DNA of 37,452 nt. Origin: an uncultured Mucilaginibacter sp. (GTDB lineage: Bacteria; Bacteroidota; Bacteroidia; Sphingobacteriales; Sphingobacteriaceae). The stretch's first letter is position 1; every line of letters starts with the position of its first letter. The position numbers were made by a program, and so were the translations under genes. Under the pieces are notes generated by a model, which saw nothing but the letters and a program-made list of their open reading frames with translations, made no database searches and had not been told where the DNA came from. Shown piece by piece: positions 19,913-37,452 of this stretch. The DNA lies in assembly GCF_937859865.1 (NCBI RefSeq), contig NZ_CALMAT010000113.1:1-37452 (forward strand), given 5' to 3'.

Positions 19913-20084
19913 AAATATTTTTTGCTGATTTTAAATTTTCTCGGATTTTTTGTCATTTCGATATGCAGAGGGAAATCTTTTTCAAAGCGATGCTTCTTTT
20001 ATCAAATAAATTTCGCTTTGATGAAGATCCCTCCTATCGTCGGGATGACAATACCAATTTTATACAGATAAAAGAAGCATTGCC

Positions 20085-21198: not shown

Positions 21199-21254
21199 CA
21201 ACTATTATTTATTGAACTATTCACCATGAACCATCAACTATTAACCATCAACTA
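21199..21254. repeat. ACTATTAACCATCAACTA repeat block, right of the S23 gene
   Basis: Units such as GAACTATTCACCATGAACC and ATCAACTATTAACCATCAAC lie directly after the stop of the S23 gene and run up to five bases before the symporter start. They are in the opposite orientation to the block at 20721-20789 and match the block at 6139-6187. Confidence 0.6.
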
Positions 21255-21259
21255 AACCC

Positions 21260-22744: not shown

Positions 22745-22771
22745 TTTAATTTTTGTATTTTGAGTGATATT

Positions 22772-23479
22772 ATGACAAGCGACGAGAAAATAAGACACGC
22801 TTTTGAAAACCGCAACTGGCACGAAATCAAGGTTACCGATTCGTGGCAGATTTTTAAAATTATGGCCGAATTTGTGGACGGCTTTGAAAAACTGGCCAAA
22901 ATCGGCCCTTGTGTTTCCATTTTTGGTTCGGCCCGGACGCACCACGAAAACCCGTATTATTTATTGGCCGAAGAATGTGCACGCTTATTAAGCGAAGCTG
23001 GTTACGGCGTAATTTCGGGCGGCGGCCCCGGCGTGATGGAAGCGGCCAACAAAGGCGCTTACGAAGCCGGCGGAAAATCAGTAGGATTGAATATTGAACT
23101 GCCTTTTGAGCAGTTCCACAACAAATACATTGACCGTGATAAACTGCTGGAGTTTGATTATTTCTTTATCCGCAAAGTGATGTTCATGAAATATTCGCAG
23201 GGCTTTATCATTTTGCCTGGTGGTTTTGGAACGATGGACGAATCTTTTGAAGCGATCACCTTGATCCAAACCGGAAAAATTGCCCGTTTCCCTATCGTTT
23301 TTGTTGGAGTTGATTATTGGAAAGGTTTGTTCGATTGGATTGAAGAGAAAATGCTGGGCCAGGAAAAAAACATCAGTCCGGACGATTTGAACCTGTACCG
23401 CGTGGTGGATACGGCCGAAGAAGCGGTGGAACACATTTTCCGTTTTTACAACAAATACGTGTTAAAACCGAACTTTTAA
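22772..23479 (+). CDS. LOG family protein (TIGR00730 type)
   Basis: This is a Rossmann-fold protein of the LOG/YgdH-type family, of which characterised members hydrolyse nucleoside 5'-monophosphates such as cytokinin ribotides to free base and ribose phosphate. The frame extends up to a TTG at 22760, but the ATG at 22772 (MTSDEKIRHAFENRNWHEIK) is the better start and gives 235 residues. Diagnostic motifs are SGGGPGVMEAANKGAYEAGG and the PGGFGTMDESFE (PGGxGTxxE) signature. FGSAR in the first strand binds phosphate. It follows the symporter by 27 bases on the same strand. After its stop a perfect 21-bp palindrome of the 12-mer word separates it from the convergent TlpA gene. Confidence 0.93.
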   Translation: MTSDEKIRHAFENRNWHEIKVTDSWQIFKIMAEFVDGFEKLAKIGPCVSIFGSARTHHENPYYLLAEECARLLSEAGYGVISGGGPGVMEAANKGAYEAGGKSVGLNIELPFEQFHNKYIDRDKLLEFDYFFIRKVMFMKYSQGFIILPGGFGTMDESFEAITLIQTGKIARFPIVFVGVDYWKGLFDWIEEKMLGQEKNISPDDLNLYRVVDTAEEAVEHIFRFYNKYVLKPNF

Positions 23480-23494: not shown

Positions 23495-23547
23495 AGGGCA
23501 TAAAAGAAGCATTGCGGTTTTTAACTGCAATGCTTCTTTTATGCCCT
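23495..23547. terminator. Perfect 21-bp palindrome made of two opposed 12-mer copies
   Basis: The arm 23495-23515 (AGGGCATAAAAGAAGCATTG, then C) and the arm 23527-23547 are perfect reverse complements around an 11-base loop. Each contains one TAAAAGAAGCAT word. It lies between convergent genes, 16 bases after the LOG stop and 23 bases from the TlpA stop. It is expected to work as a bidirectional transcription terminator. Confidence 0.85.
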
Positions 23548-23569
23548 AATTTTTCAACTCACTTCTTTT

Positions 23570-24166
23570 TTATTTTGATTTAGCTGAAACGTTATCAGAA
23601 GCTGGTTTTTTAGCTTTCTCGATCATATCAGCTACTTCATCTGCTAATTCATGATCGTTTTCGTCTGGCATAAAACCTATCCGCTCAAAACGTACGATTC
23701 CTTCACCGTCAATGATAAATTTGGTTGGGATACCAATTAGCTTGTAATCTTTATAAAGTTTACTTTTTGTTCCGTCCATGCTCATATCATCATACAAAAC
23801 TTTAAATGAGTAATGATTTGTTGCTAAAAACTCTCCTACTAACTGCTGGTAATTTTCCACTTTCTCCCGTGTGTCAATAAACAAAAAAGCCACGTTTTGG
23901 TCGTCTTTGTACCGGTTTACTGCCTGTTGCATTCCCGGGAAAGACATTTTGCAAGGTCCGCACCACGTAGCCCAAAAATCGAGCACCACCACTTTTCCTT
24001 TGTAATCAGCCAAGGAAACTGCTTTTCCGCTGGTATCTTTTAGGGTGAATGAAGGTGCCACTTGATTTGTGATCAATTCAACCTTTGGCGGCGTTGTGCT
24101 TTGCGCAAACAACAATTGTGCAGACAGCAAACCTGAAAACGCAAGCAATAAACCAATTTTTTTCAT
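23570..24166 (-). CDS. TlpA-like periplasmic thiol-disulfide oxidoreductase
   Basis: This 198-residue exported protein is a TlpA/ResA-type thioredoxin-fold reductase. A signal peptide (MKKIGLLLAFSGLLSAQLLF, ending FAQ) is followed by a thioredoxin domain (residues about 33-180) with the active site WATWCGPC (C69, C72), the KxxG(K/V)VVVLDFW strand and the cis-proline region IGIPTKF. It acts in the periplasm on disulfides of exported proteins or cytochrome c maturation clients. The thioredoxin domain is nearly the same as in the neighbouring larger gene at 24275, including LKDTSGKAVSLAD and WCGPCKMSFPGMQ, so the pair arose by duplication. A 15-bp palindrome of the 12-mer word lies between the two genes. 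Confidence 0.93.
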   Translation of the reverse strand: MKKIGLLLAFSGLLSAQLLFAQSTTPPKVELITNQVAPSFTLKDTSGKAVSLADYKGKVVVLDFWATWCGPCKMSFPGMQQAVNRYKDDQNVAFLFIDTREKVENYQQLVGEFLATNHYSFKVLYDDMSMDGTKSKLYKDYKLIGIPTKFIIDGEGIVRFERIGFMPDENDHELADEVADMIEKAKKPASDNVSAKSK

Positions 24167-24223
24167 AAAATTATTTTTAGGTAAATTACGAATAAAATTT
24201 ATCTGTCAAGAAAAAACAAGCGG

Positions 24224-24263
24224 TAAAAGAAGCATTGCAGCTAAAACCGCAATGCTTCTTTTA
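24224..24263. terminator. Perfect 15-bp palindrome made of two opposed 12-mer copies
   Basis: TAAAAGAAGCATTGC (24224-24238) and its perfect complement (24249-24263) enclose a 10-base loop. It lies 11 bases after the stop of the larger TlpA gene and before the start of the smaller one. The right flank (ATGCCCTA) matches the palindrome at 23495, and the two palindromes probably share an origin. Confidence 0.82.
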
Positions 24264-24274
24264 TGCCCTATTTT

Positions 24275-26236
24275 TTACTTTCCTTTTTCGGTGTCTGTTT
24301 TTTCTGTTTTTGCAACAACGGTTTCCGGGTTTGCGGCCATTTCAATCATCGCAGAAACTTCATCTCTGATGCTTTCGGCGTTTCCATCAAAACCTACTTT
24401 TTTAAAGCGAATGTTCCCGTCTTTATCTAAAACAAATTTAGTCGGGATGCCTTCTACCCCAAATGTGCTGATCACTTTTGATTGCCGGTTATCGCTTCCT
24501 TTTTCATCCAATAAAACCTGGAAAGTGTAATGGTTATCGGCAATAAATTTTTTGACACCGGTTAAATAATCATCGCCGTTTTCCCAAGTATCAATAAATA
24601 AAAACTTTACGTTTGGGTTGTCTTTGTATTTGTTCACGGCCAGTTGCATCCCCGGAAAAGACATTTTGCAAGGGCCGCACCAGGTAGCCCAAAAATCAAT
24701 CACTACCACTTTGCCTTTTAAATCGGCCAGTGAAACTGCTTTTCCGCTGGTATCTTTCAAAGTAAAAAGTGGTGCTGGTTGGTTGATCATTTCTTTGGCT
24801 AAAGCAGTTCTTGCGGCTATTGAAGCTGCGTTTTTTAAAGAAGCAAAATATGGATCGTAACCAGCATCAGAACCTTTTGCTTTTACATATATGGCTTTCA
24901 AATCAGCATTCATACTTTCAGAACTTTTGCCGTTTTTAATCGCCGTTTCTATTACTTGTCTGGCTTTTTGATCCTCTCCAACTGCTTTTAAAATTGATGT
25001 ATAATTTTCATTAATATCTACAGCGTTTCCTTTTGACCTTTCGTAAACGGGCTGCTCATAACTTAGTGCTTCTTTGGGTTTGTTTTGTTTGAGCAGGATA
25101 AAAGCATAGGTATCAGCGTACATATCATAAGCTGATTGGTACCTTTCTTTCAACATTTTTGGAGAGGCATAAGGCTGGGAACCGGGATTATTGATTTTCT
25201 CTTTTGTTAAATCTAAAGATTGTTTTGAGATGTTTGCCGCTTCATCCAGATGTTCCCCTTTTTTAGCCCAGTTAAAGGCAACGTTGTTTAAACCCATAGC
25301 AAGATATGATTTATCCTTGATCTGGTTTTCCCAGCGGTGATAATCATCCATTTTACCTTCCCGCAAATAAGAACCTGCCAATTGCAAGCGTAAATTATCT
25401 TGAACCGTTTTCTTTTCGGTTGCGCTTTCAGGATACTTCTTTACATATTCATTATACAATGCTTCTTTTTTAACCAGATCTTTCTCTTTATTAAAATCCA
25501 TTGCCAATTCGCTTTTGGCAAGTTCTCCATTAGGAAATTTAGCTTTTATAACAGCAGTCAAAGAATCTGCGGAAGCCTTTTTTGTTCTTCTCAATAAATT
25601 ACTGGCCAAGATCAAATCTTTTTCATTATTGCTTTTCATCAAAGCGTTTAATTTTTGATCAAGCACAGGTGCAAAAGCTGGGTTTTTACCCGAAGCCAAC
25701 ATGGAAAGATACATAGGCTGATATTCCTTTTCGCTTTGCGGATAAGTTTGAAACTCCTGCTGATACAAAGAAAAGGCCTCATTTGAGTCTGTTTTGATTT
25801 TTGCAACCGCTGTTCCAAAACCGCTAAACAAAACAAAAGCTTTAGAAGCGTAAGTGCCTTCAACCGGCTTGTTGCCTTTGTAAATTGTGTATAAATAACC
25901 CTGCCCATTGTTATCGTCAATCGCCTCATCTTTGCTGATTTTTATAAAAAAAGCTTTTGCCGTAGCCGGAATTGTAAAATCGCCTTTTAAAAGTTTCCCG
26001 GTCGGTTTTAGGTCAATGTCAGCAACGGGATAATCTTTGTTGTCTAAAAAATAAATTGCAGCGTTCAAATCGCTTTTACCATCAACCGGCGTGCCTGAAG
26101 GATCATAAGTAACCGCTATCTTTTCCCCTGCTTTTGGGTAAGCATCCGAAAGGTTTAAGTGTGCACCGCTTTGTGCAAACCCGTTTTGCATGGTCAGGAT
26201 TCCTGAAAATGCAAGCATAAGTTTCAGTTTTCTCAT
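24275..26236 (-). CDS. TlpA-like thioredoxin with large N-terminal helical-repeat domain
   Basis: The frame is open to 26266, but the ATG at 26236 gives a canonical signal peptide (MRKLKLMLAFSGILTMQNGF, ending AQS) and 653 residues. Residues about 25-150 are a beta-rich domain of the type that precedes such reductases in Bacteroidota. Residues about 160-470 are helical, with TPR-like repeats (LKQNKPKEALSYEQPVYERS and similar). The C-terminal thioredoxin domain has WATWCGPC (C520, C523) and a VEGIPTKF cis-proline segment. It is probably a periplasmic disulfide reductase with a protein-binding front part. It is a paralogue of the gene at 23570, from which it differs by the added N-terminal region. 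The 12-mer appears near both ends, with a one-mismatch copy at 26289. Confidence 0.92.
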   Translation of the reverse strand: MRKLKLMLAFSGILTMQNGFAQSGAHLNLSDAYPKAGEKIAVTYDPSGTPVDGKSDLNAAIYFLDNKDYPVADIDLKPTGKLLKGDFTIPATAKAFFIKISKDEAIDDNNGQGYLYTIYKGNKPVEGTYASKAFVLFSGFGTAVAKIKTDSNEAFSLYQQEFQTYPQSEKEYQPMYLSMLASGKNPAFAPVLDQKLNALMKSNNEKDLILASNLLRRTKKASADSLTAVIKAKFPNGELAKSELAMDFNKEKDLVKKEALYNEYVKKYPESATEKKTVQDNLRLQLAGSYLREGKMDDYHRWENQIKDKSYLAMGLNNVAFNWAKKGEHLDEAANISKQSLDLTKEKINNPGSQPYASPKMLKERYQSAYDMYADTYAFILLKQNKPKEALSYEQPVYERSKGNAVDINENYTSILKAVGEDQKARQVIETAIKNGKSSESMNADLKAIYVKAKGSDAGYDPYFASLKNAASIAARTALAKEMINQPAPLFTLKDTSGKAVSLADLKGKVVVIDFWATWCGPCKMSFPGMQLAVNKYKDNPNVKFLFIDTWENGDDYLTGVKKFIADNHYTFQVLLDEKGSDNRQSKVISTFGVEGIPTKFVLDKDGNIRFKKVGFDGNAESIRDEVSAMIEMAANPETVVAKTEKTDTEKGK

Positions 26237-26311
26237 AACAACTAATTTTTTAGGAAAAATAAACAATTTAAAACTTAAAAAGAAAACAATACTTCTTTTA
26301 CCGATAAAAAT

Positions 26312-26918: not shown

Positions 26919-29387
26919 TTACTCGTAAAAATATACCCTTTTTACCCGTTGGGAAATGTTGGTGAGGATCTCGTATGGAATCGTTCCGGCTTGTTGGGCC
27001 AGCGTTTCTATCCGAAGCTGATCGTTAAAAACAATCACTTCGTCGTCCTCTTCCACCTCAATTTCGCTCACATCCAACATACACATATCCATCGAAATAT
27101 GGCCGATCGTTGGCGCCAATTTTCCGTTGATGAGCATTTTACCGTTCCCGTTGCCAAAAACGCGCAAATAACCATCGGCATAACCAATGCGAACGGTTGC
27201 AATCTGGCCGTCTTTTTCCATTTCATCGTTCCGACTGTAGCCAATTGTTTCGCCTGCTTTTACTTTTTTAAGTTGGGAAATGCTGGTTTTTAAAGCGGCA
27301 ACAGGCTGCAAAAGATTGCTTTGCTGGTCATCCGAAGTATCAATTCCGTACAAACCGATGCCAAGACGGACCATATCCAACTGCATTTCGGGAAAGCGGG
27401 AAATAGCCGAAGTATTGGCGATGTGCTTGATAAAAGCGTAACCCAAAGTTGTTTCTATTTGCCGGCAAACTTGTTGAAAAGCAGCAAATTGTTGTCGCGT
27501 AAATTCATCATGTTTTGCAGAACCGCTGGCCGCCAAATGCGAAAAAACGGATTTGACTTGCAATTGCGGGTTGTTTTTAAGCACTTGGCAAAGCTGTTCC
27601 GCTTCGTCAGTTTCAAAACCCAAACGGTGCATCCCGGTATCAATTTTTAGATGGATGGGAGAAGGAATCACTGATTTTTGACCGATAAAAGAAGCATATC
27701 GTTCTAACAAGTTAAAACTGTAAATCTCCGGTTCCAACTGGTGCTGAACCAATTCTGCAAAAGCCGTAAATCCTGGGTTTAAAACCATAATGGGCAGCGT
27801 AATTCCCGCATTTCGCAGCGCAACGCCTTCATCTACATAAGCTACGGCCAGGTAATCCACTTTGTTAAATTGCAAAATGCCTGCAATTTCAAAACTTCCG
27901 CTGCCGTACGAAAAAGCTTTTACCATCGCCATCAGTTTTACGCCCGGTTTTAAAATGGATTTGTAATGGTTGAGGTTGTTTTGAAGCGCGTTTAAATTAA
28001 TCTCCAAAACCGTTTCATGTGTTTTTTGCGATAAAATGCGGCTGATCCGTTCAAACTCAAAACTCCGCGAACCTTTTAGCAAAATGGTTTCATCTCGAAA
28101 TTGAAGCTGAGGCAATTCCTTCAACAACGATTCTGTGTTTGGAAAAAAATGTTTTTCCTGAATTTGAAAGGCTTGTTCGTTTTCTGAAATCTCCTCTCCT
28201 ACACCAATCAGCCGGTCGATTTTTTTTTGTTGAATCAAAGCGGAAACCTGTTTGTACAATTCATCGCTTTTTAAACCCGACTGGTAAATATCCGACAGAA
28301 TTAAGGTTTTCTTCGGATGCTGTTTTTGCCGCTCTAAAAAGTTTAAAGCAATCTCCAACGAGTTGATATCTGAGTTGTACGAATCATCAATAACGGAACA
28401 GTTGTGCGTACCGTTTTTCAGTTCCAGCCGCATACTTACGGCGTTTAGCGTTTCCATCCTTCGGCCCAAAACTTCGGGATTTGTGCCTAAAGCCAGTGCG
28501 GTTGCCCAGCAAAGCAGGGCGTTTTCTACCGAAGCTTCATCGGTAAATGGAATGCTGCATACCAATTTTTTGCCGGTAAAAACAGCATTGATTTGGGTTT
28601 TCCCTATAAAGGTTTCCTGTTCCAAAACAAACAAATCGGCTTGCTTTGATTTTTTGCTGATGGTAAAAGTCTTCAACCCGTTCAATTCCCGCGCGGTCTC
28701 TTCCGGCGCCTGGTCCTGATTGTAAACCAGCAGATGCACGTTTTTAAACAGCTTTAATTTCTCCTTCAGCTTCTCGTTTCGATTAATAAAACCTTCATCA
28801 TGTGCGGCGGCAAAATGTGTTAATACGCCGATGGTTGGTTTGATCATCGCTTCCAGCCGTTCCATTTCTCCAGGCAAAGAAATCCCGGCTTCAAAAATCC
28901 CCAGCTCGTTTTGCGCATCAATTTGCCAAAGCGAAAGCGGCACGCCGGTTTGCGAGTTGTAACTTTTCGGGCTTCGTACCACGTTTTTATCTAGCGAAAG
29001 CAATTGGTACAACCATTCTTTTACTACTGTTTTGCCGTTGCTTCCGGTTATCGCTATCACTTCCAAATCAAACTGGCTGCGATGAAAAGCGGCCAATTGT
29101 TGCAAGGCTGGCAATACTTCTTTTACCACTATAAAATTGGCGTTGTTTAGTTCTTGTGGAATTTGACAACCTTCCTTCACCACAAAATTGAAAACGCCGG
29201 CAGCATATAATTCGGGAATGAAACTGTGGCCGTCGCGCTTTCCATCCAAAGCAAAAAACAAAGATTTGGCGGCGTTACTGATACGGCGGCTATCAGTAAG
29301 CAAATGTTCAATCGCAACATCTTGGGCAATGCTTCTTTTAGCACCTAAAATTTCACTGATTTTTTGAATGGAATAACGACCGGGCAT
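26919..29387 (-). CDS. Bifunctional UDP-MurNAc-tripeptide:D-Ala-D-Ala ligase / alanine racemase (MurF-Alr fusion)
   Basis: This 822-residue fusion joins two steps of peptidoglycan precursor synthesis: making D-alanine and adding D-Ala-D-Ala to UDP-MurNAc-tripeptide in the cytoplasm. Residues 1-455 are MurF, with the N-terminal UDP-binding domain, the ATP loop ITGSNGKT (113-120), the central ligase domain and the C-terminal domain (VIDDSYNSD). Residues about 458-822 are alanine racemase, with the PLP-lysine K490 in MVKAFSYGSG, GIGLYGI, IGYSRND (catalytic Tyr region) and RIGYADGY. Such MurF-Alr fusions are typical for Bacteroidota. Three copies of the dispersed word are inside the gene (27686, 28577 and 29329). 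The start codon faces recX, a divergent neighbour 56 bases away. Confidence 0.95.
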   Translation of the reverse strand: MPGRYSIQKISEILGAKRSIAQDVAIEHLLTDSRRISNAAKSLFFALDGKRDGHSFIPELYAAGVFNFVVKEGCQIPQELNNANFIVVKEVLPALQQLAAFHRSQFDLEVIAITGSNGKTVVKEWLYQLLSLDKNVVRSPKSYNSQTGVPLSLWQIDAQNELGIFEAGISLPGEMERLEAMIKPTIGVLTHFAAAHDEGFINRNEKLKEKLKLFKNVHLLVYNQDQAPEETARELNGLKTFTISKKSKQADLFVLEQETFIGKTQINAVFTGKKLVCSIPFTDEASVENALLCWATALALGTNPEVLGRRMETLNAVSMRLELKNGTHNCSVIDDSYNSDINSLEIALNFLERQKQHPKKTLILSDIYQSGLKSDELYKQVSALIQQKKIDRLIGVGEEISENEQAFQIQEKHFFPNTESLLKELPQLQFRDETILLKGSRSFEFERISRILSQKTHETVLEINLNALQNNLNHYKSILKPGVKLMAMVKAFSYGSGSFEIAGILQFNKVDYLAVAYVDEGVALRNAGITLPIMVLNPGFTAFAELVQHQLEPEIYSFNLLERYASFIGQKSVIPSPIHLKIDTGMHRLGFETDEAEQLCQVLKNNPQLQVKSVFSHLAASGSAKHDEFTRQQFAAFQQVCRQIETTLGYAFIKHIANTSAISRFPEMQLDMVRLGIGLYGIDTSDDQQSNLLQPVAALKTSISQLKKVKAGETIGYSRNDEMEKDGQIATVRIGYADGYLRVFGNGNGKMLINGKLAPTIGHISMDMCMLDVSEIEVEEDDEVIVFNDQLRIETLAQQAGTIPYEILTNISQRVKRVYFYE

Positions 29388-29443
29388 AGCGCGAATTTGA
29401 AGATATTTCTGCCAATAGAAGAATTTTAACGATTTTTGGGTTG

Positions 29444-29929
29444 ATGGATTTTGAAGAAAGCAAACCGAAAATACTCGACCCCAAAACAGCGTTGCTGAAA
29501 GCCGAGAAATATTGCGTTTACCAGGAACGCGCGCAGCAGGAAGTGCGCGATAAGCTGTACACTTTTGGTTTGCACCAGCGCGATGTAGAAAATATCATCT
29601 CGGAACTCATCAGCAATAATTTTTTGAATGAAGAACGTTTTGCAAACGCATACACTTTAGGGAAATTCAGACAAAAAGGCTGGGGCAAAATCAAGATTAA
29701 ACAGGCTTTAAAACTGAAACGGGTGCCGGACGGCTTGATTAAAAAAGCATTACAGCAAATTGATTTGGACGATTACCTGCAAAAGCTAAAAGGCATTCTG
29801 GAGAAAAAAGCCGCTTTATTGAAAGAAAAAGATGCTTATAAAAGAAGCTACCAGCTAAAACAGTACGCTTATGGCAAAGGCTACGAAGGCGATTTGGTAG
29901 TTGAAGTTTTGAAAGCCAATGACTTATAA
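29444..29929 (+). CDS. recX: Regulatory protein RecX
   Basis: RecX is a small helical protein that binds RecA filaments and limits strand exchange. The reading frame begins with a TTG at 29441, but the ATG at 29444 (MDFEESKPKILDPKTALLKA) is the likely start, giving 161 residues, a usual length. The three-helix repeats are visible: KAEKYCVYQERAQQEVRDKL, then VENIISELISNNFLNEERFA with the typical LNDxRFA-like motif, GKFRQKGWGKIKIKQALKLK, and a C-terminal KGYEGDLVVEVL. It is divergent from murF-alr with a short shared upstream region. The frame ends 68 bases before the tRNA-Gly. RecA itself is not in the window. Confidence 0.92.
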   Translation: MDFEESKPKILDPKTALLKAEKYCVYQERAQQEVRDKLYTFGLHQRDVENIISELISNNFLNEERFANAYTLGKFRQKGWGKIKIKQALKLKRVPDGLIKKALQQIDLDDYLQKLKGILEKKAALLKEKDAYKRSYQLKQYAYGKGYEGDLVVEVLKANDL

Positions 29930-29956
29930 AAAAATGAAAAAAAAGCTTGCCAAAGG

Positions 29957-29987
29957 CTTGTGTTTTTTTTGAATCTGTATATATTTG
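29957..29987 (+). promoter_or_regulatory. Promoter of tRNA-Gly, Bacteroidota consensus
   Basis: CTTG at 29957-29960, then 19 bases, then TATATTTG at 29980-29987. The -7 element matches TAnnTTTG exactly and the -33 element matches three of four bases of TTTG. Transcription would start within a few bases of the tRNA 5' end at 29998. Confidence 0.75.
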
Positions 29988-29997
29988 CAACCACAAT

Positions 29998-30070
29998 GCG
30001 AAAGTAGCTCAGTTGGTAGAGCGCAACCTTGCCAAGGTTGAGGTCGCGAGTTCGAACCTCGTCTTTCGCT
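29998..30070 (+). tRNA. tRNA-Gly (anticodon GCC)
   Basis: This 73-base gene folds with acceptor GCGAAAG/CTTTCGC, a D-arm AGCTCAGTTGGTAGAGC, an anticodon stem CAACC/GGTTG with loop TTGCCAA giving anticodon GCC, and the T-arm GAGGT-type stem with TTCGAAC. The discriminator is T70 and CCA is not encoded. A good promoter lies just upstream and a rho-independent terminator follows. Confidence 0.96.
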
Positions 30071-30096
30071 CTTAGCCTCACAAGCCTCACCCTAAA

Positions 30097-30125
30097 TCCC
30101 TCTCCAAAAGAGAGGGACTTTTTTT
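30097..30125 (+). terminator. Terminator after tRNA-Gly
   Basis: TCCCTCTC (30097-30104) pairs perfectly with GAGAGGGA (30110-30117) around a 5-base loop, followed by CTTTTTTT. This is a textbook rho-independent terminator, 27 bases beyond the tRNA. Confidence 0.85.
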
Positions 30126-30165
30126 AGAGAGGAAATTTAGTTTAGAGGAATAACCAACATTGCTT

Positions 30166-30250
30166 GCTCGGGTGGTGGAACTGGTAGACACGCAGGACTT
30201 AAAATCCTGTTCCCGTTAAAGGAGTGCGGGTTCGATTCCCGCCCCGAGTA
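30166..30250 (+). tRNA. tRNA-Leu (anticodon UAA)
   Basis: The 85-base gene has acceptor GCTCGGG/CCCGAGT (one G-U pair), D-arm GTGGAACTGGTAGACAC, anticodon stem CAGGA/TCCTG with loop CTTAAAA (anticodon TAA), a long variable arm (TTCCCGTTAAAGGAGT) typical of type II tRNAs, and a T-arm GCGGG/CCCGC. The 3' 43 bases are repeated exactly at 30355-30397. A terminator directly follows. Confidence 0.96.
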
Positions 30251-30251
30251 C
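30209..30251 (+). repeat. 43-bp direct repeat, left copy (tRNA-Leu 3' end, attachment-site candidate)
   Basis: The 3' half of tRNA-Leu from the end of the anticodon stem to one base past the gene is identical to 30355-30397, 146 bases away. Integrative elements often duplicate the 3' end of their target tRNA, so this is one of two candidate att copies. Confidence 0.75.
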
Positions 30252-30288
30252 AAAGCCTGATACCAAAGTATTGGGCTTTGTTATTTTA
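30251..30288 (+). terminator. Terminator after tRNA-Leu
   Basis: CAAAGCC (30251-30257) pairs with GGCTTTG (30274-30280), with an inner ATAC/GTAT pairing around CAAA, followed by TTATTTT. It starts immediately behind the tRNA. Confidence 0.7.
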
Positions 30289-30309
30289 AAAAATTTGTTT
30301 TAAGGGAAC

Positions 30310-30397
30310 AGCATCAACGCCAGAACTGGCAGGCACGCCCCGATTAAGATCGGGGTTCCCGTTAAAGGAGTGCGGGTTCGATTCCCGCCCCGAGTAC
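30310..30397 (+). pseudogene. Degenerate tRNA-Leu copy with 43-bp identical 3' end (attachment-site candidate)
   Basis: This stretch lines up with the whole tRNA-Leu. The acceptor 5' strand is lost, the D-arm is recognisable but altered (AGAACTGGCAGGCACGC), and the 17-base anticodon arm is replaced by the 18-base hairpin CCCCGATTAAGATCGGGG. From 30355 on it is identical to the real tRNA. Without a 5' acceptor strand it cannot make a normal cloverleaf. It also holds the stop codon of the recombinase gene on the other strand. Confidence 0.75.
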
Positions 30398-31936
30398 TGC
30401 ACGGGAAAGACGCAATGAATCACGTTCTTTCCCGTTTTTTTTTGGCTTTAACATGCTGTTAATCTGAAATATAAGAAGTGCTGCTTCATTCATTCGCTGG
30501 GTTCGATATTCGTTCCCGTCAAATCTCATTTTTTCACGGTATATCGAACCCAGTATTGCCCTTTTAGTTAAAACGTCTCCCTCTCCATACAATGTTTCGA
30601 GTCTTGAAAGTACCTCAATTGCTTTTAAAACCATATTATCTACACTGATAGTGTTAGATTTTAGTACCCTCGCCTCTGAAAGCATATCTTCAAGCCTTTT
30701 TATTTTTTGCTCACAATCTTTTTTCATTATTGCATAATCATCCGCCTCTAGTTTTCCGTCAAAAAGTAGGTCCCTTGCGTTCGCTAATTTAATCTTGAGC
30801 TTTGCAATTTGTTCTGCTATTTCACGCCTTTGGTCAACAGTATTTCCTTTATGAGTTTTATAAATGTCAAGTACAACTGTTTTGTATAATTCAGACATGC
30901 CTGGCAAGGGTACAAATTTTAAAAGTTCTTCTTGAACAGCTTTATTGACATGATCTGCCTTATATCGACAACCGCACCCATAAATTGATTGAGCGTGATA
31001 ATAATAGTAATAACCTCCTTTTTTCCCTTTTGATGCACTTCCTGTAAGTTGTTTATTACAAGTTGCGCATTCCAAAAAGCTTTGTAGCGGTAAGCCTTCA
31101 TTGATTTTTACAGCATTTAAACGCATTGCTTTTGTACGACCATTCAATATATCCTGCACTTTATGAAATAAAGTCTCTTTAATTAATGGCTCATGTAAGC
31201 CATTTACCCATTGTTCTTCTTCATCTTTAAAAGCCTTTACGACTATCTTTCCACAGTAGACGGGGTTTCTAATCTCACGATAGAAATTCATTCGGCTTAT
31301 CATAAATCCTCTGTCGTTAGCCATCTTTCTAATTTGATCAGGCGCAAATACTCCTTCAGCAATAGTTTCAAATATCCATTTCATCTGCGGCGCTTCTATT
31401 GGATTAAACGCAATATATTTACTACCATCTTCTCTTGTTTTATTATCATATCCTATTGGGGCAACGCCCATATATCTGCCCTCTTTTCTCGCCCGCCGCA
31501 TTCCTTGTTTTACGTTTAAAGCTCGTCGGTCATTTTCTACCTCCGGTGCAGCTAAATAAAATGCCAACATAATTTTGTTTTCCGGGATTTCTAAATTAAG
31601 AGGTTGTTCGACTGCCTGGGGTTCAATTCCCAATCTCGTTAATGTAGAAATCATTTGATAAGCATCTCCTGCATTACGGCTAAACCTATCCCACTTTGTA
31701 AAAAGAACTAAGTCAGCACCCCTTCCTTTATTCTTACGAATCTCAGTCAAATACTTATTCCACTCCGGACGATTAAAGGTTTTTGCAGAATGATCTTCAA
31801 ATAATACCTTTCGTACTTTCATACCATTAATTTCACAATATTTCTGTAACTGCTCATTCTGGTCTCTTTGAGAATAACCTTTGTCTGCCTGCTCGTCTGT
31901 TGATACCCTAATGTATAAATCTGCAATTTTCATCAT
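30362..31936 (-). CDS. Large serine recombinase (resolvase/invertase-type integrase)
   Basis: This 524-residue site-specific recombinase is probably the integrase of the element. The N-terminal resolvase domain has the catalytic serine in LYIRVSTDEQ (S12) and the conserved LVLFTKWDRFSRNAGDAY helix. A recombinase domain follows from about 155 to 260 (GVAPIGYDN and FYREIRNPVYCGKI), then a zinc ribbon beginning CATC near 295 with a partner CGC, and a C-terminal coiled coil (about 370-440). The last residues (AVLGAGIEPALL) are read from the complement of the duplicated tRNA-Leu 3' end, which also supplies the stop. Start at 31936, with an alternative ATG at 31933. The small gene upstream ends nine bases before it. 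Confidence 0.92.
   Translation of the reverse strand: MMKIADLYIRVSTDEQADKGYSQRDQNEQLQKYCEINGMKVRKVLFEDHSAKTFNRPEWNKYLTEIRKNKGRGADLVLFTKWDRFSRNAGDAYQMISTLTRLGIEPQAVEQPLNLEIPENKIMLAFYLAAPEVENDRRALNVKQGMRRARKEGRYMGVAPIGYDNKTREDGSKYIAFNPIEAPQMKWIFETIAEGVFAPDQIRKMANDRGFMISRMNFYREIRNPVYCGKIVVKAFKDEEEQWVNGLHEPLIKETLFHKVQDILNGRTKAMRLNAVKINEGLPLQSFLECATCNKQLTGSASKGKKGGYYYYYHAQSIYGCGCRYKADHVNKAVQEELLKFVPLPGMSELYKTVVLDIYKTHKGNTVDQRREIAEQIAKLKIKLANARDLLFDGKLEADDYAIMKKDCEQKIKRLEDMLSEARVLKSNTISVDNMVLKAIEVLSRLETLYGEGDVLTKRAILGSIYREKMRFDGNEYRTQRMNEAALLIFQINSMLKPKKNGKERDSLRLSRAVLGAGIEPALL
30401..30443 (+). terminator. Strong plus-strand terminator inside the recombinase 3' end
   Basis: ACGGGAAAGA (30401-30410) pairs perfectly with TCTTTCCCGT (30426-30435), followed by nine T. 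It terminates transcripts coming rightward out of the tRNA-Leu copy. It overlaps the last codons of the minus-strand recombinase gene. Confidence 0.8.
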
Positions 31937-31945
31937 TTTTAAATT

Positions 31946-32098
31946 CTATAGCTTCACGTATTGTTCTATCGACAATTTACCAAGTTTGTACATGAAATCC
32001 AAGATTAATTTTGCTTCTTCTATAGTGACAATAGTCCTATGCTTTTTCAGAATTTCTACAGCTTTTTCCGGTGTAAGCGATCTTTTTTCGGGTAGCAT
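31946..32098 (-). CDS. Small conserved-looking protein next to the recombinase
   Basis: The first ATG (32098) gives 50 residues: MLPEKRSLTPEKAVEILKKH, then RTIVTIEEAKLILDFMYKLG and a short tail. The frame is open further to a TTG at 32128, but the ATG is preferred. It is predicted to be all-helical and carries no signal peptide. It ends nine bases before the recombinase start on the same strand, so the two are probably co-transcribed. Small ORFs with this kind of sequence are common upstream of serine recombinases of Bacteroidota elements, which is my recollection and not a tested statement. A role as a directionality or regulatory factor is possible, but nothing in the sequence proves it. 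Confidence 0.6.
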   Translation of the reverse strand: MLPEKRSLTPEKAVEILKKHRTIVTIEEAKLILDFMYKLGKLSIEQYVKL

Positions 32099-32108
32099 AT
32101 TTGGTTTC

Positions 32109-32130
32109 TTTTGCTTTGTAAAAAGCAAAA
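32109..32130 (-). promoter_or_regulatory. 9-bp inverted repeat upstream of the small recombinase-linked ORF
   Basis: TTTTGCTTT (32109-32117) and AAAGCAAAA (32122-32130) are perfect reverse complements with a 4-base loop. The repeat lies 11-32 bases upstream of the ATG at 32098 and could be an operator or a leader hairpin for the recombinase operon. Confidence 0.4.
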
Positions 32131-32554
32131 CTGGGGGAAGCTTATTTAAGTAATTGTATATCGAATACCAAGCACAATTTTTACACCTAATCCTCTTATT
32201 CTTAGTAGTTTATTGTAAATTTCTTTTTGAAATCAAGTTATTTATAAGTCTCTCTTTTACTTTTTATTCAGCTAAACTATAGTAATTCAAGTAACTTCTA
32301 TCAATCCTTGTCCCAAAACCTATACTCACCAATACCTGTCAATATTTGCATCATATTGGCTTGTTAAAACCATTAGCAATGATATTAAAAACTACAATCA
32401 GAAAACACTCTATTACTAGCACCAGGGTTAGAAAATCCGACAGGGATACGGCAAATAGAACCGAATAAATCTTTAACTGAAGCATTAATCAAATCATAAA
32501 ATCAACCATTAACCACGGGCTTTAAGGGGGCGTTTTACAATCACGCGGGTGCTT
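32131..32554. other. AT-rich non-coding spacer of the mobile element
   Basis: No credible gene occurs between the divergent recombinase operon and the mobilization operon. The stretch is AT-rich up to about 32,500 with short A- and T-runs and becomes GC-richer towards the candidate oriT. Both promoters of the divergent operons should lie here, but I could not place them with confidence. Confidence 0.5.
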
Positions 32555-32634
32555 GGCAAGATGTACTTTTGTCCACACAAAAGGCCTTGCCCTCCTTTCA
32601 GTCCGTAGGTGACCGCTGCGGAACTTGCGGTCAC
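32555..32634 (+). other. Candidate origin of transfer (oriT) with two hairpins
   Basis: Hairpin one: GGCAAG (32555-32560) with CTTGCC (32586-32591), enclosing CTTTTGT/ACAAAAG (32566-32572, 32577-32583) around CCAC. Hairpin two: GTGACCGC (32609-32616) with GCGGTCAC (32627-32634), ten-base loop. They lie directly upstream of the mobC-like gene and relaxase, where oriT sits in most MOBP-type elements. A nic site cannot be fixed by eye. Confidence 0.5.
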
Positions 32635-32656
32635 TAGTTTTTATCATGTACTTATT

Positions 32657-33064
32657 ATGGGCAGGACAAAATATAAAGCCCGGGAAGAATTACTGAACTT
32701 CCCGGTAAGGACCAGGGTAACTGAAGTTACTTATAAACGACTGGAAAAACTGGTAGCGGAAAGCAACTGCCAGTCTGTAGGCGAAGTAGCCAGAAAGATA
32801 TTGTCCCGTGAAAAGATACTTTGCTTTTATAAGGACATTACGATGAACGCGCCGATGGAAGAACTGGCAAGTATCCGAAAAGAACTGAAATCCATAGGCA
32901 TCAATATCAACCAGCTCACCAAAGGGTATAACAGTGCAAAGGAAGAAGCCCATAGAGCTTTTTATATCTTAAAAGTATTGGAGCAGTATAAACCGGTCGA
33001 AGCAAAAGTGGACAGGCTGCTTTTATTAGTATCAGCGTTAGCCGAAAAATGGTTGCAAAAATAG
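32657..33064 (+). CDS. Mobilization accessory protein (MobC-like)
   Basis: This encodes a 135-residue oriT-binding accessory protein from the MobC/BmgB type. The frame can be read from a GTG at 32609, but that start lies inside the candidate oriT hairpin; the ATG at 32657 (MGRTKYKAREELLNFPVRTR) is preferred. The first part looks like a ribbon-helix-helix DNA-binding fold (TRVTEVTYKRLEKLVAESNC, then SVGEVARKILSREKI). The second part matches the MobC pattern (LASIRKELKSIGININQLTK). Such proteins open the oriT and recruit the relaxase. The last 16 bases overlap the relaxase start in another frame, which indicates translational coupling. Confidence 0.85.
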   Translation: MGRTKYKAREELLNFPVRTRVTEVTYKRLEKLVAESNCQSVGEVARKILSREKILCFYKDITMNAPMEELASIRKELKSIGININQLTKGYNSAKEEAHRAFYILKVLEQYKPVEAKVDRLLLLVSALAEKWLQK

Positions 33065-34361
33065 TCAGCGGTAAAAGTATAAGAGGCCTGCTCAACTATA
33101 ACGAAAGTAAAGTGAAGGCAGGTAAGGCAGAACTGATTATGGTCAGTAGGTTTGCAGGGGAAACCAGTCAATTAGGGTTTAACCAAAAGCTTCAGCGCTT
33201 TGAACATCTTACTGATTTGAATAGTCATGTAAAAACCAATTCGGTTCATATTATGCTCAACTTTGATTTCATGGAGCAGCCCGATTATTTCAAGCTGCAA
33301 CAAATTGCTGCTTCATATATGGAAAAGATCGGTTTCGGTGAGCAGCCTTATTTGGTTTACAAACATGAGGATGCAGCTCATCCCCATATCCATATCGTTA
33401 CGACTAATATCCAGGAAGACGGGTCGAGGATCAACCTGCACGACATAGGAAAAAGACTTTCTGAACCGGCAAGAAAAGAACTGGAAAAGGAATTTGGCCT
33501 GATTAAAGCCGAAGGAAAGGAACTGAAAGATGCCATAGCCATAAAAGCGGTTAACATAGAAAAAGCAGAATATGGGAAAACGCCTACCAAGCGTGCTATC
33601 ACCAATGTCGTTACTGCTGTTACCCGGGATTATAAATATACCTCCCTTGCTGAAATGAATGCCATACTCAAACAATTTAATGTTATAGCAGACCGAGGCA
33701 AAGAGGATACCCAAATGTTCCAAAAGAAAGGTTTGATCTATTCGATTATCGATGAAAAGGGTAACAAGATGGGTATCCCTTTCAAGGCAAGCAGTTTGAA
33801 TGGTAAACCGACGCTTCCTAACCTCGAAAGCAAGTTCATACAAAACGAAGAAAAGCGAAAACCTTACAAGGAAGACCTAAAAGCCAGCATTGATAAAGTT
33901 TTTACTGCTTATCAGCAAATTACCAAGGAGACTTTTGTAAAAGAACTGGCTAACCTAAATATCAATGCTCTTTTTCGTCAAAACGAACAAGGCCTTACCT
34001 ACGGGGTAACTTTCGTCGACAACAAAAACAAAACAGTTTTTAATGGCAGTGACCTGGGCAAAGCCTATAGTGCCAAAGCGATCAGCGAAAGGTTTAGCAA
34101 TCAGGATAAGCCTGTTCACCAACCGCAGCAAACCAGCAAACCACTGCATCTTATCTTAAGCTTAAACAACAGACCAGTTATCTGAAAACACAAAAAGAAA
34201 CGGACTACTTGAAAACGGCTCAAAAGGAACAGGAAAAAACCTACCTGAAGCCAAGCTTACCGGAAAGGTTACTGGAAAACCTGCTGGGCAAAACAGACGA
34301 GGACAGCTTACCTACCATTCCCGAGGATAAAAAGAAGAAGAAAAGGGAACTGCATTTATAA
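33049..34361 (+). CDS. MOBP-type relaxase (MobB/VirD2-like), C-terminal tail out of frame
   Basis: This relaxase nicks DNA at oriT and pilots the strand to the recipient. The relaxase domain has the motif I region GLLNYNESKV (probable catalytic Y17), motif II NSVHIMLNFDF, and the metal-binding motif III HEDAAHPHIHIV (H106, H111, H113, H115). The continuous frame ends at 34185 after 378 residues with an unlikely tail (LILSLNNRPVI). In the -1 frame a plausible natural ending continues, TTASYLKLKQQTSYLKT onward through PERLLENLLGKT and KKKKKREL to a TAA at 34361; that frame is closed upstream at 34109. One missing base between about 34,110 and 34,180 explains this. The truncated protein may still nick. 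Confidence 0.85.
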
Positions 34362-34386
34362 ATCATCATAAAATAAAAGCGACATC

Positions 34387-34476
34387 ATGCAAACAGGAGA
34401 AGCCCTGCAAGGGCTTAGAAAAATCATTGATTTTACCAGGCTGATCAGCCTGTTTATTTTAGCAGTGCATTTTTGA
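34387..34476 (+). pseudogene. N-terminal stub of a conjugative coupling protein (TraG/MobC-type T4CP)
   Basis: A 29-codon frame begins MQTGEALQGLRKIIDFTRLI and ends SLFILAVHF, then TGA. This matches the N-terminal segment by which Bacteroidota type IV coupling proteins begin, a short cytoplasmic helix leading into the first membrane helix. The rest, normally more than 600 residues with Walker motifs, is missing; the next 600 bases contain no related sequence. It follows the relaxase by 25 bases, which is the expected place of this gene. An internal deletion has apparently removed nearly the whole coupling protein. Confidence 0.55.
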
Positions 34477-34510
34477 GCAAAGCCCGTAAAACCAGTAAAC
34501 CTGTTTGAAC

Positions 34511-34546
34511 CAAAGGCGTGGATTTAATTATCCAGGCCTTTTTTAG
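34511..34546 (+). terminator. Terminator-like hairpin
   Basis: AAGGC and GGAT pair with ATCC and GCCTT around an AT-rich loop, followed by a T-run (CCTTTTTTAG). Pairing is imperfect. It would end transcripts from the mobilization operon just after the coupling-protein stub. Confidence 0.5.
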
Positions 34547-34559
34547 TTATATAATCGAA

Positions 34560-35030
34560 AGAATTTTTTATAAGTGAAATTTAACCACATAAGGGCAAAA
34601 GCCATTTCCTGCATTCCGCACAGCTCCATTCCGTAAACCGCTTCCCGCTTTGGTAGCTGAAAAGCGTAAGGCTCCTTCGTCGCCACACGCATTTAATCCG
34701 CTTTTCTAATCACCTTCTTAAGCAGAAATACTACTAGCAATAACGTCTGGTAATGTGCTTTTTCAGTAGCCACTGGCCTTTTATATACAGCAAATTTCCG
34801 ATGAGCAGGGACACATGAGCAAGGTCGGGCCCTACGGGTTTTGAAAAAATAATCTTCCTCTCCTTTTTTCAGTGGTGCCCTTCGGGCGGGTTGTCCCGGA
34901 GAGCGTATTTTTTTTCCAAAAACCTTGCCCATGTGCCCTGCCTAATCAGGTGCGCTGCTTAATAAAAAGCCAGCGAGCCTATGCGAGCGGACTTAAAAAC
35001 AAAGCATCAAAAACAAAAAAGCACCGAACC
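34560..35030. other. Non-coding region holding a large imperfect hairpin (34806-34940)
   Basis: No credible gene is found here; the frames on both strands lack any familiar pattern. The main structure is a 135-base imperfect hairpin. CAGGG, CACATG and GCAAGG (34806-34824) pair with CCTTGC, CATGTG and CCCTG (34923-34940) with one bulge and one mismatch. The stem continues as TTTTGAAAAAATA (34839-34851) against the T- and A-runs at 34907-34921. The inner loop holds GCCCTTCGGGC (34878-34888). It could be a structured RNA, a leader of the downstream gene cluster or a replication or termination site. Confidence 0.55.
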
Positions 35031-35150
35031 ATGAAACTACCAAAAAGCAGGGCACCACCAACTGGAAAGCGGATTACGACCACAGACCGATCGATCACAA
35101 AAAGCAAAACCAATTACGATTCAAAAATCAAATTCATTTTAAAAACATAA
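35031..35150 (+). CDS. Possible small basic peptide
   Basis: An ATG at 35031 opens 39 codons (MKLPKSRAPPTGKRITTTDR, then SITKSKTNYDSKIKFILKT). The product would be Lys/Ser/Thr-rich, basic and disordered. It ends five bases before the start of the next gene, in the same direction, which is the only support. I do not recognise it and it may be just leader sequence of the next gene. Confidence 0.3.
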   Translation: MKLPKSRAPPTGKRITTTDRSITKSKTNYDSKIKFILKT

Positions 35151-35155
35151 AACCC

Positions 35156-35719
35156 ATGGAAACCAAAGTAAAAGAAAACGGCGCAGCCGTAAACGGCAAA
35201 GCAGAGGCAGCATTTATCAATAACAACCCGGTAAATAAAGAAGCCGTGAAACCAGAGGAAGCGAAAGCCGGAGAAGTGAAAAAAGATGGCGCGCAAGAAC
35301 AACCTGGGCAACCGCTACCACCAAAAGACGGAATTGAACAGTCAAAACCAGAACAACTGAAAGCAACGGAGCAACCCAATGCAGAACCGGCAAAAGCAGA
35401 AACCAAACTTGCGAAACCTGCATTGAACCTGGAAGGCACTTTAAAATTAGTGGAAGAACTGCACCGCAGGAAAATACAAAGGGACAAGCTGCTTGATACC
35501 ATTAACACTTTGGAAGCTTTTGAAGTGGCACAAATCGAAGACGGGGACGATACAGACAATAACCATTTTCAGGGTTGTACTTTGATGATCGAGGACGACA
35601 GCCGGAGGAAGTTTATTACTAAAAACCCTGTTATCATCTGGTCAGTGAGCCAGTATGTGAACATCCTTTGTGTTGAAAAGCTATCAGAAATAGAAGCTGG
35701 CATTATCATTCCTGCATAA
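35156..35719 (+). CDS. Element-encoded hypothetical protein with Lys/Glu/Pro-rich N-terminus
   Basis: This 187-residue protein has no signal peptide and no membrane segment. Residues 1-95 are a disordered tract rich in Ala, Glu, Lys, Pro and Gln. Residues about 96-187 form a compact domain: two helices (LNLEGTLKLVEELHRRKIQR and DKLLDTINTLEAFEVAQ), then a strand-rich end (GCTLMIEDDSRRKFITKNPV, IIWSVSQYVNILCVEKLSEI). Similar proteins usually accompany the DUF932 gene cluster in Bacteroidota integrative elements, sometimes near PRTRC-type genes; that is recollection from family context and not proof. The role is unknown. A structured non-coding region precedes it and a hairpin follows it. Confidence 0.7.
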   Translation: METKVKENGAAVNGKAEAAFINNNPVNKEAVKPEEAKAGEVKKDGAQEQPGQPLPPKDGIEQSKPEQLKATEQPNAEPAKAETKLAKPALNLEGTLKLVEELHRRKIQRDKLLDTINTLEAFEVAQIEDGDDTDNNHFQGCTLMIEDDSRRKFITKNPVIIWSVSQYVNILCVEKLSEIEAGIIIPA

Positions 35720-35742
35720 GTGGTATTGATAGCAAAAATAGC

Positions 35743-35775
35743 AATGCTTCCTGTACTTGCAGTTCAGGAAGCATT
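35743..35775. terminator. 11-bp perfect hairpin after the hypothetical gene
   Basis: AATGCTTCCTG (35743-35753) and CAGGAAGCATT (35765-35775) pair perfectly with an 11-base loop. There is no T-run, so it may be a processing or stability structure more than a terminator. It shares ATGCTTC with the chromosomal 12-mer but not the rest. Confidence 0.55.
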
Positions 35776-35840
35776 CTAAACCTCACCCAGTTTCTAAAAT
35801 AACGATAACCACAGCACCAATAAAAACAACAAAAACAACC

Positions 35841-35970
35841 ATGTTAGAATTATTTATCGAACTGACAGGGCCAAATCTTTTGGGACGGCTATGCCCAGCA
35901 ATTAGCAGGCGACAGCCCTGCTGTATTCCAAACTGAGTTCAGTGATTTTTTGAATTTCTATAACGAATAA
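35841..35970 (+). pseudogene. Small element gene broken by one extra base
   Basis: An ATG at 35841 starts MLELFIELTGPNLLG, which soon runs into a stop. If one T is removed from the TTTT run at 35878-35881, the reading goes on as LWDGYAQQLAGDSPAVFQTE and FSDFLNFYNE to the TAA at 35970, giving about 42 acidic, helical residues. Spacing (about 38 bases) and orientation fit the surrounding cluster. I do not know its function. Either a true mutation or a sequence error in the homopolymer explains the break. Confidence 0.5.
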
Positions 35971-36008
35971 CAACCAGCAGTTAAATAAAACAATCAACAG
36001 CTAATCAA

Positions 36009-36197
36009 ATGAAAGACACCATTTTTTTATTCTTTAAAGTCGTGATCCAGACCAGTCATACTGCTATCCGGGATGCAGTAAAAGAACTGGAAACAGAAAC
36101 AACCTATTTTATAGGGAGCACAAAAAACGTGCAGGTATTAGAAACAGAGATCATCAAACTGAATACTGACCATTTAGACGATGATGAGCTACACTAA
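36009..36197 (+). CDS. Small element-encoded protein
   Basis: This 62-residue protein (MKDTIFLFFKVVIQTSHTAI onward, ending TDHLDDDELH) lies between the broken small gene and the DUF932 gene, in the same direction with short gaps of 38 and 54 bases. The N-terminal third is a beta strand followed by a helix, and the tail is acidic. No signal peptide or membrane helix is evident. I cannot assign a function. Its context suggests that it belongs to the conserved accessory cluster of such elements. Confidence 0.6.
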   Translation: MKDTIFLFFKVVIQTSHTAIRDAVKELETETTYFIGSTKNVQVLETEIIKLNTDHLDDDELH

Positions 36198-36251
36198 GCT
36201 GCGGTCAATAAACCAAAAACAACCAGATCAAAAACAATCAAAAAAACAATC

Positions 36252-37312
36252 ATGGCACATAATCTAAATTATAACCAGCAGAAAGGCAAGCACAGCTTCT
36301 TTTCCGTTAAAGGAAAAGCATGGCACGGGTTAGGACAAATTATCAGCGATTACCCGACAAGCGAGAAAGCGATCATACATGCAGGGTTAGACTACCAGGT
36401 AGAAAAAGACCTTTGTTTACCTACGATGCAAACAATAACTTTTGGGACAATAGCGAGGCAATATCGGATATCGAACTATCAAACCATTTTGCAACCGTCC
36501 GGGCAGACACAGACCAGGTTTTAGGCGTAGTAGGCAATGATTACGAGATCGTACAGAACATAAACGCTTTTTCGTTTTTTGACGAAATTGTCGCCAGCAG
36601 AAAGGATATTTTATATGAAACGGCAGGCGCATTAGGCAAAGGTGAGCGTATTTTTATTACGGCGAAACTGCCTGATTATATAAAAGTCGGTAGGGATGAC
36701 TTGATTGAGCAGTATTTATTCCTGACTACTTCCCATGACGGTTCGGGCAGTATCACTATCGCTTTTACGCCTGTTCGGATCGTTTGCCAGAACACCTTAA
36801 ATGCAGCCTTAAAAAATAGCAGCAACAGCATCAGGATACGTCATACGGCAAGTGCAGCAGAAAAGCTGAAAGGTGCACAACAAATACTGGGTAGGTCGAT
36901 GCAGTTATCGGTAGAACTGGAAGCAGTGTTTAACCACTGGGCAAGGGTCAAAATCACAGACCGCGAAGTAAAAAGGCTGATCGAACTCGCAATGGCACCA
37001 GGCAAAGAAGTACCGCAAAAGCCTAAAAGCGAAAAGCAAGAGGAATATTCCTCCATATTTAACAATACGGTTAGTTCTGTAATGGAATACGCTTTAACAA
37101 GCCCGACACAACAGGAAGTAACTACCAAAGGCACTTTGTTTGGTGCTTATAATGCCGTTACCGGCTATTTTCAGAATGTCAAGAATTATAAGGACGGGGA
37201 AGCTAAGTTTAAATCCATCATGTACGGCGCAGGAATGCAGAAATCACAGACTGCTTTTGATCTGTGTGCTGATTTTGCAAAACATGGAAGTAGTTTTTTG
37301 AGGCTAAACTAA
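36252..37312 (+). pseudogene. DUF932 (phage/plasmid-like TIGR03299-type) gene with a one-base deletion
   Basis: The first frame (from ATG 36252) reads MAHNLNYNQQKGKHSFFSVK, then GKAWHGLGQIISDYP and GLDYQVEKD, the typical start of DUF932 proteins. It breaks down after the A-run at 36403-36407. From there the -1 frame reads RPLFTYDANNNFWDNSE and continues without interruption to the stop at 37312, with GVVGNDYEIVQN, ALGKGERIFITAKLP, LFLTTSHDGSGSITIAFTP and KGTLFGAYNAVTGYFQN. Adding one A gives EKRPLFTYD, the family sequence, and a full-length protein of about 354 residues. DUF932 proteins are common on plasmids and integrative elements; their role is not known. As it stands the gene is split in two. 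Confidence 0.85.
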
Positions 37313-37340
37313 TACTGAAATATACCAATTAATAAAGGTT

Positions 37341-37452
37341 TGGACTTGCAACAAAAAAGTGGACAAATGGTTAAGCTGCGATAATTTGATTGTTTAGTTG
37401 TTTTTCAAAGTTCTGCGGTGAGGTATATCCCAAGGCAGAATGTAACCTTTTA
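37341..37452 (-). mobile_element. Right-edge IS3-family insertion sequence, one end only
   Basis: The sequence from about 37341 (TGGACTTGCAAC) looks like the terminal inverted repeat and short 3' non-coding part of an IS3-family element, followed on the minus strand by the end of its transposase. It lies 29 bases behind the DUF932 stop. The other end is outside the window, so the exact boundary and any target duplication cannot be confirmed. Confidence 0.6.
37371..37452 (-). CDS. IS3-family transposase (OrfB/rve type), C-terminal fragment at window edge
   Basis: Read on the minus strand, the last codons are LHSALGYTSPQNFEKQLNNQ followed by IIAA and a TAA at 37373-37371. HSALGYxSPxxFE is the characteristic C-terminal motif of IS3-family transposases, which carry out cut-copy transposition through a DDE integrase domain. 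The rest of the gene lies beyond the window. It is a recent-looking insertion next to the already broken DUF932 gene. Confidence 0.8.
   Translation of the reverse strand, partial: KRLHSALGYTSPQNFEKQLNNQIIAA

Follow-up and report, generated by a model that had tools for sequence, protein, structure and literature searches.

Two palindromes around a TlpA-type gene

The window analysed here is a stretch of 37,452 nucleotides from the genome of a member of the Sphingobacteriaceae, near Mucilaginibacter. The region of interest includes a LOG-family gene, whose product has its nearest named relatives in Mucilaginibacter (about 90% identity), and two TlpA-type genes. The first of these is flanked by two palindromes, P1 and P2, each composed of opposed copies of the 12-letter word ATGCTTCTTTTA, with the minus-strand copy preceding the plus-strand copy (a -+ pair). 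The features are as follows:

22760-23479, + strand: LOG-family gene (Pfam Lysine_decarbox), ending about 15-16 nt before P1
23495-23547, both strands: P1, a -+ word pair with 21-bp perfect arms (23495-23515 and 23527-23547) and an 11-nt loop
23501-23512 (-) and 23530-23541 (+): words of P1, from sequence reading
23548-23554, + strand: T-rich tail of P1, AATTTTT, which would serve LOG-gene transcripts (a scan for terminator-like structures lists 23498-23544 with AATTTTT)
23570-24166, - strand: first TlpA-type thioredoxin-fold gene, between P1 and P2, converging on the LOG gene; its stop lies 22 nt from P1
24208-24223, - strand: tail of P2 in the TlpA-gene direction, CCGCTTGTTTTTTCTT on the - strand (terminator-like scan)
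24224-24263, both strands: P2, a -+ word pair with 15-bp perfect arms (24224-24238 and 24249-24263) and a 10-nt loop
24224-24235 (-) and 24252-24263 (+): words of P2, from sequence reading
24275-26266, - strand: second TlpA-type gene, whose C-terminal thioredoxin-fold domain resembles the first TlpA; its stop lies 11 nt from P2

The initial annotation had described perfect stems of 21 and 15 bp at 23495-23547 and 24224-24263, each including the word in both orientations, sharing a right flank and placed right after stop codons. These coordinates were confirmed. Both orientations can be read directly in each palindrome (TAAAAGAAGCAT followed by ATGCTTCTTTTA in P1 and P2 alike), ATGCCCTA and a T run occur directly 3′ of both, and P1 and P2 start about 16 nt past the LOG stop and 11 nt past the second TlpA stop, respectively. 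P1 is located between the stops of the converging LOG-family and first TlpA-type genes; P2 is also separated by 57 nt from the first TlpA-type gene's start.

Perfect inverted repeats of at least 15 bp with a loop of at most 15 nt occur twice in the window and never in 20 Markov shuffles of it, placing the two stems far beyond chance. As RNA, P1 is predicted to fold with -41.0 kcal/mol on one strand (z -10.6) and -36.5 kcal/mol on the other (z -9.3), and P2 with -30.1 (- strand) and -23.1 kcal/mol (z -6.5 and -5.4), and no shuffle was as stable. The stable stem-loop and U-rich tail typical of rho-independent terminators are present at P1 on the + strand and at P2 on the - strand. The tails of both are imperfect: that of P2 toward TlpA reads CCGCTTGTTTTTT, and P1 has a poor U tail for the TlpA (-) direction (TTAAAATT). 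An Rfam search of the window returned only two tRNAs and no known RNA family at the palindromes. P1 and P2 align best when one of them is inverted, and their similarity covers the hairpin, loop included, and the tail, and ends there. Since the likeness is confined in this way, one of the two was probably copied locally from the other.

Abundance, range and structure of the word

The word is present in 2114 exact copies (1055+1059) in this 3.98-Mb genome; the reversed word, used as a control, occurs 1+1 times. Two congeners carry 1947 (982+965) and 1118 (598+520) copies, and 57 further genomes from the family and class between 0 and 9. The 14-mer ATGCTTCTTTTAYC is found at most 3 times in each of 150 other genomes of the order. 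Strong over-representation, with at least some 1000 copies distributed over the two strands without bias, is one of the features by which uptake words are recognised. No comparably dispersed word was seen in 80 loci from named genomes (Mucilaginibacter, Pedobacter and others), each about 10 kb long, a length at which such a search has limited power, and none of these loci includes more than one copy of any word form. A viral source was rejected, as no viral contig was found with the extended word.

Within the window, all 19 exact ATGCTTCTTTTA words and 7 exact ATGCTGTTTTTA words, a second form of the core described below, were located by word search on both strands between 641 and 29340. Besides those of P1 and P2, the ATGCTTCTTTTA words are:

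641(+), 3163(+), 4195(-), 6115(+), 7131(-), 9225(+), 13193(-), 13434(-)
14061(-), 15366(+), 19058(-), 19990(+), 20069(-), 27686(-), 29329(+)

The stretches read in the three species amount to 616 kb of the own genome (G000), 340 kb of G001 and 80 kb of G002. Alignment of 113 copies defined a motif of about 28 bp, in which the core is followed by a [TC]C[AG][CG] (YCRS) spacer and, between about +17 and +24, by an AT-rich tract; a weak GGTG is also present. An AT-rich extension at a fixed distance from the core, as in known uptake words, is thus present. The geometry of pairs in the opposite order, +-, shows the AT tract to be part of the signal: in the own genome 28 of 29 such pairs span 42-45 bp in total, the spacing at which both cores share one AT tract, and in a smaller class of 30 bp the tract of one core can be supplied by the A-rich part of the other.

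Further forms of the core are ATACTTCTTTTA, ATGCTGTTTTTA and ATACTGTTTTTA. The second core, ATGCTGTTTTTA, has 175+162 copies genome-wide, and ATACTTCTTTTA and ATACTGTTTTTA are also common. The two-base change from TC to GT occurs mostly as a unit, single steps being rarer. About three quarters of the ATGCTTCTTTTA copies are intergenic and about 70% of the ATGCTGTTTTTA copies genic, fractions that are approximate because genes were called with a simple caller based on codon usage. The genic preference of ATGCTGTTTTTA may reflect a compromise with coding constraints.

Conservation and distribution along the chromosome

The word is conserved between species. Compared with the congeners, 26 of 46 genic words (57%) are identical and 32 of 46 have one of the four forms, against an identity of 9.7% for phase-matched nearby 12-mers. 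For intergenic words, 14 of 36 are exact and 23 of 36 are present in any form (control 11.8%). Identity across species is mostly at least 0.9 in the core, 0.8-0.9 in the AT tract and about 0.73 in the flank, and words that have diverged differ mostly by one to a few substitutions.

Copies are also spaced more evenly than expected. The index of dispersion per 10 kb is 0.45 compared to 1.10 ± 0.19 for random placement preserving the genic/intergenic split, and none of 2000 simulations was as low; among 53 control 7-mers a few come near the observed index, with a minimum of 0.50. The largest word-free gap in the 616 kb begins at 29341, extends to the end of the window and is largely occupied by a mobilizable element:

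29341-37452: word-free stretch with two tRNAs, then the mobilizable element
29998-37452: tRNA-Gly and tRNA-Leu, then the element, cut by the contig end
30362-31936: serine recombinase of the element
32609-33064: MobC-like protein of the element
33049-34185: relaxase of the element
36320-37312: DUF932 protein of the element

An even spread and a lack of words in imported DNA, both features of uptake words, are thus observed, with one element examined and a spacing that is weaker in G001.

Many of these properties would also suit a site for a chromosomal DNA-binding protein, such as a nucleoid organiser or a recombination or segregation factor, with the pairs still acting as terminators. This is the main alternative to an uptake signal, and one that we regard as rather unlikely. 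It is compatible with the length of the motif and its AT tract, the strict geometry of +- pairs, the conservation and the even spacing. However, the copies show no strand bias, either genome-wide (1055/1059) or in 260 kb of G001 (53/56), unlike polar Chi or KOPS words, and a Chi/KOPS-type word was itself rejected on these counts. Moreover, some 2000 copies of a 12-bp core in one genus, together with their absence from a mobile element, form the pattern of uptake words (PMC12616744, PMC7811141).

Other repeats

Several other repeats were observed. A MITE-like family of about 170 bp has outer inverted repeats AGAGCCTGTTTAAATTT, which enclose two words, arranged +- at a distance of about 82 bp, and a variable middle (for example C3:53309-53402, L011, and C5:38593-38688, L014), with 34 candidates in 616 kb. 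Strict matches to a AGAGCCTGTTTAAATTT end plus a word number 65, 20 and 4 in the three species, so this family seems to be expanded in the present species, where it carries a good part of the words. That some copies, those of the 82-bp +- class, travel with these repeats counts against the uptake-type reading. At 19990-20080 in the window a +- pair with 79 bp from start to start has flanks belonging to another repeat (TGTCATTTCGATATGCAGAGGGAAATC...) rather than to the AGAGCCTGTTTAAATTT family. Intergenic AGTCCGAAAG/AGTCCGGAAG repeats (L071, L073, L074, L075, L082 and L088) are found in several Mucilaginibacter genomes and in one Bacteroidetes MAG, and are clustered, unlike the spread ATGCTTCTTTTA word. 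Finally, runs of 14-nt units such as AACTATGAACTATGAACAATCAACTATAAACC occur at 6137-6202 and 21208-21259 of the window.

Inverted pairs and their role

The initial annotation had counted a lack of further paired copies in the genome as evidence against it. Close -+ pairs, with at most 24 nt between the cores, in fact number 38 in this genome (P1 and P2 among them) and 34 and 15 in the two congeners, roughly a sixfold excess over the 7.0, 5.6 and 2.1 expected by chance (plus copies × minus copies / length × 25 offsets). There are 29, 23 and 10 +- pairs in the three genomes. P1 and P2 have the location just after stop codons that is expected of terminators, and in the 616 kb as a whole 20 of the 26 close intergenic pairs of any form lie within 60 nt of a stop.

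The same annotation had raised the possibility that small palindromic elements spread as hairpins and left the single words as remnants. This now appears largely refuted and very improbable. P1 and P2 share a hairpin including its loop, near-identical loops occur in neighbouring pairs elsewhere (in C43, where two pairs are separated by 812 bp, and in C58, where the distance is 92 bp), and the MITE-like family carries words in this genome. One -+ pair, with the loop CAGTTTTTGGCCR, recurs in all three species. Apart from neighbours, however, the loops of -+ pairs are unrelated in sequence and length, which argues against a dispersing palindromic element of the REP or MITE type; genic words are conserved and differ mostly by substitutions, and the likeness of P1 and P2 stops at the hairpin and tail, as after local copying.

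The junctions orthologous to those of the window provide a further view of the hairpins. In G001 the arrangement LOG-TlpA-TlpA is conserved, and G002 retains LOG-TlpA. The LOG/TlpA junction of G002 holds a hairpin whose arms pair perfectly over 23 bp. An identical one-base substitution is present in its two words (ATGCTTTTTTTA), and other base pairs of the arms differ from the window on both sides, as compensatory changes. G001 has at this junction a wordless hairpin, GCGTCATTGC...GCAATGACGC, followed by a T run, while its TlpA-TlpA junction carries an inverted pair of near-words. As the hairpin is kept both with an altered word and with none, the end of the LOG gene would appear to be a terminator site that the word can occupy.

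It could be argued that the pairs are hairpins with no role in termination, a by-product of the many words and perhaps selected for receptor binding or mRNA stability. Indeed, +- pairs, in which the AT tract falls in the loop, likewise exceed expectation and likewise follow stops (10 of 12 intergenic ones), and single intergenic words are already enriched near stops: 126 of 305 (41%) lie within 60 nt, compared to 23% of random intergenic points. In addition, many other -+ pairs have a spacer of 4-6 nt and an A-rich stretch ahead of any T run. We nevertheless consider this reading improbable: P1 on the + strand and P2 on the - strand are followed by T-rich tails at the position required for a terminator, G001 retains a hairpin and T run at a site without the word, and in G002 the stem is maintained through paired changes. 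Termination of transcription in the cell by -+ pairs is therefore the reading we retain, and we hold it to be quite probable. In a -+ pair located after a stop, the two cores would pair into a long stem, with the U-rich tail coming from the AT-rich flanks on the outside. P1 would terminate the LOG gene, and perhaps also TlpA from the other side, and P2 the second TlpA gene.

Comparison with known uptake systems

To our knowledge, uptake words have so far been found in only two unrelated bacterial families. Those known are read at type IV pili.

The DUS of the Neisseriaceae (GCCGTCTGAA and its dialects, with the receptor ComP) resembles the present word in being short, in having about 2000 copies per genome on both strands, in its taxon-specific forms and in the use of inverted pairs as terminators, DUS pairs being enriched between converging genes (PMC1852404). 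It differs in that the word described here has an unrelated sequence and a 3′ AT tract, favours -+ rather than +- pairs and belongs to a different phylum. In addition, no type IV pilus or T2SS ATPase was found in this genome, where uptake would be a predicted role of the word.

The USS of the Pasteurellaceae (AAGTGCGGT plus AT tracts) shares with it a core with an AT-rich 3′ extension at fixed spacing, a relatively even spread and the formation of terminators by some pairs. As with the word-free element here, the largest USS gap in Haemophilus is a genomic island (PMC7811141). In contrast to the USS, the present core is unrelated, has one AT tract instead of two and shows a stronger intergenic bias (about 75% of exact words). 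By inspection ATGCTTCTTTTA is related to neither GCCGTCTGAA nor AAGTGCGGT, so that homology to the known words (PMC1852404) is not apparent, and an uptake signal independent of DUS and USS is the best reading.

Paired uptake words acting as terminators, which the initial annotation mentioned for Neisseria and Haemophilus, are indeed documented in Neisseria and the Pasteurellaceae (PMC1852404). They share with P1 and P2 a long stem of opposed words, a T-rich tail and a position just after stops, often between converging genes. The pairs described here have the mirror orientation, and as terminators they are predicted from sequence. In both known groups the A/T stretch lies 5′ of the word, and pairs are preferentially oriented +- (PMC1852404). 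Here the AT tract is on the 3′ side, so that it is the -+ order that puts the AT flanks outside, where they can be used as a U-rich tail. The orientation observed thus appears to be the mirror image that the same tail logic predicts.

Competence machinery and significance

A search for a PilB/GspE-type ATPase (PF00437) gave no match in G000 and, in G001 and G002, nothing beyond weak matches below the threshold. The type IV pilus-type machine associated with uptake words is thus not found, so the uptake machinery would be a different one, and the word may work like DUS and USS without being filed among them. This missing ATPase also counts in favour of a DNA-binding-protein site. ComEC is present in this genome. 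Riemerella, a competent member of the Bacteroidota from another family (Flavobacteriaceae), takes up DNA with ComEC, DprA, ComF and RecA together with proteins unrelated to known machinery (PMC8459023). ComEC and the Riemerella precedent make DNA uptake by means of the word plausible. The literature searched, in which few subscription papers and preprints were covered and which leaves absence unproven, contains no report of an uptake word in Riemerella, of uptake-type words in Bacteroidota or of ATGCTTCTTTTA itself.

Overall, we favour, with some reserve, a genus-specific self-DNA uptake-type signal whose inverted pairs have been co-opted as intrinsic terminators. A surface receptor would prefer DNA bearing the word, as with the uptake sequences of Neisseria and Haemophilus, and recombination with DNA from relatives would keep and spread its copies. 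That uptake is the force maintaining the word seems to us somewhat more likely than not. The proposal of paired uptake-type words serving as terminators agrees with the thousands of copies and their confinement to one genus, with the extended motif and the even spacing, with the lack of words in a mobile element, and with the excess of pairs, their placement after stops and the orthologous hairpin, but not with the result for the pilus-type ATPase. Whether self-DNA uptake words have arisen here independently for a third time, in the Bacteroidota and with a machine other than a type IV pilus, the pairs again being co-opted as terminators, is in our view evenly balanced.

If true, a word of the same anatomy in Bacteroidota lacking a pilus-type ATPase would imply repeated origins of uptake words, with different machines. 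Their pairs would likewise have been co-opted as terminators once more, in the orientation predicted by the side of the AT tract. The word would also provide a probe for the DNA receptor of Bacteroidota and a route to better transformation.
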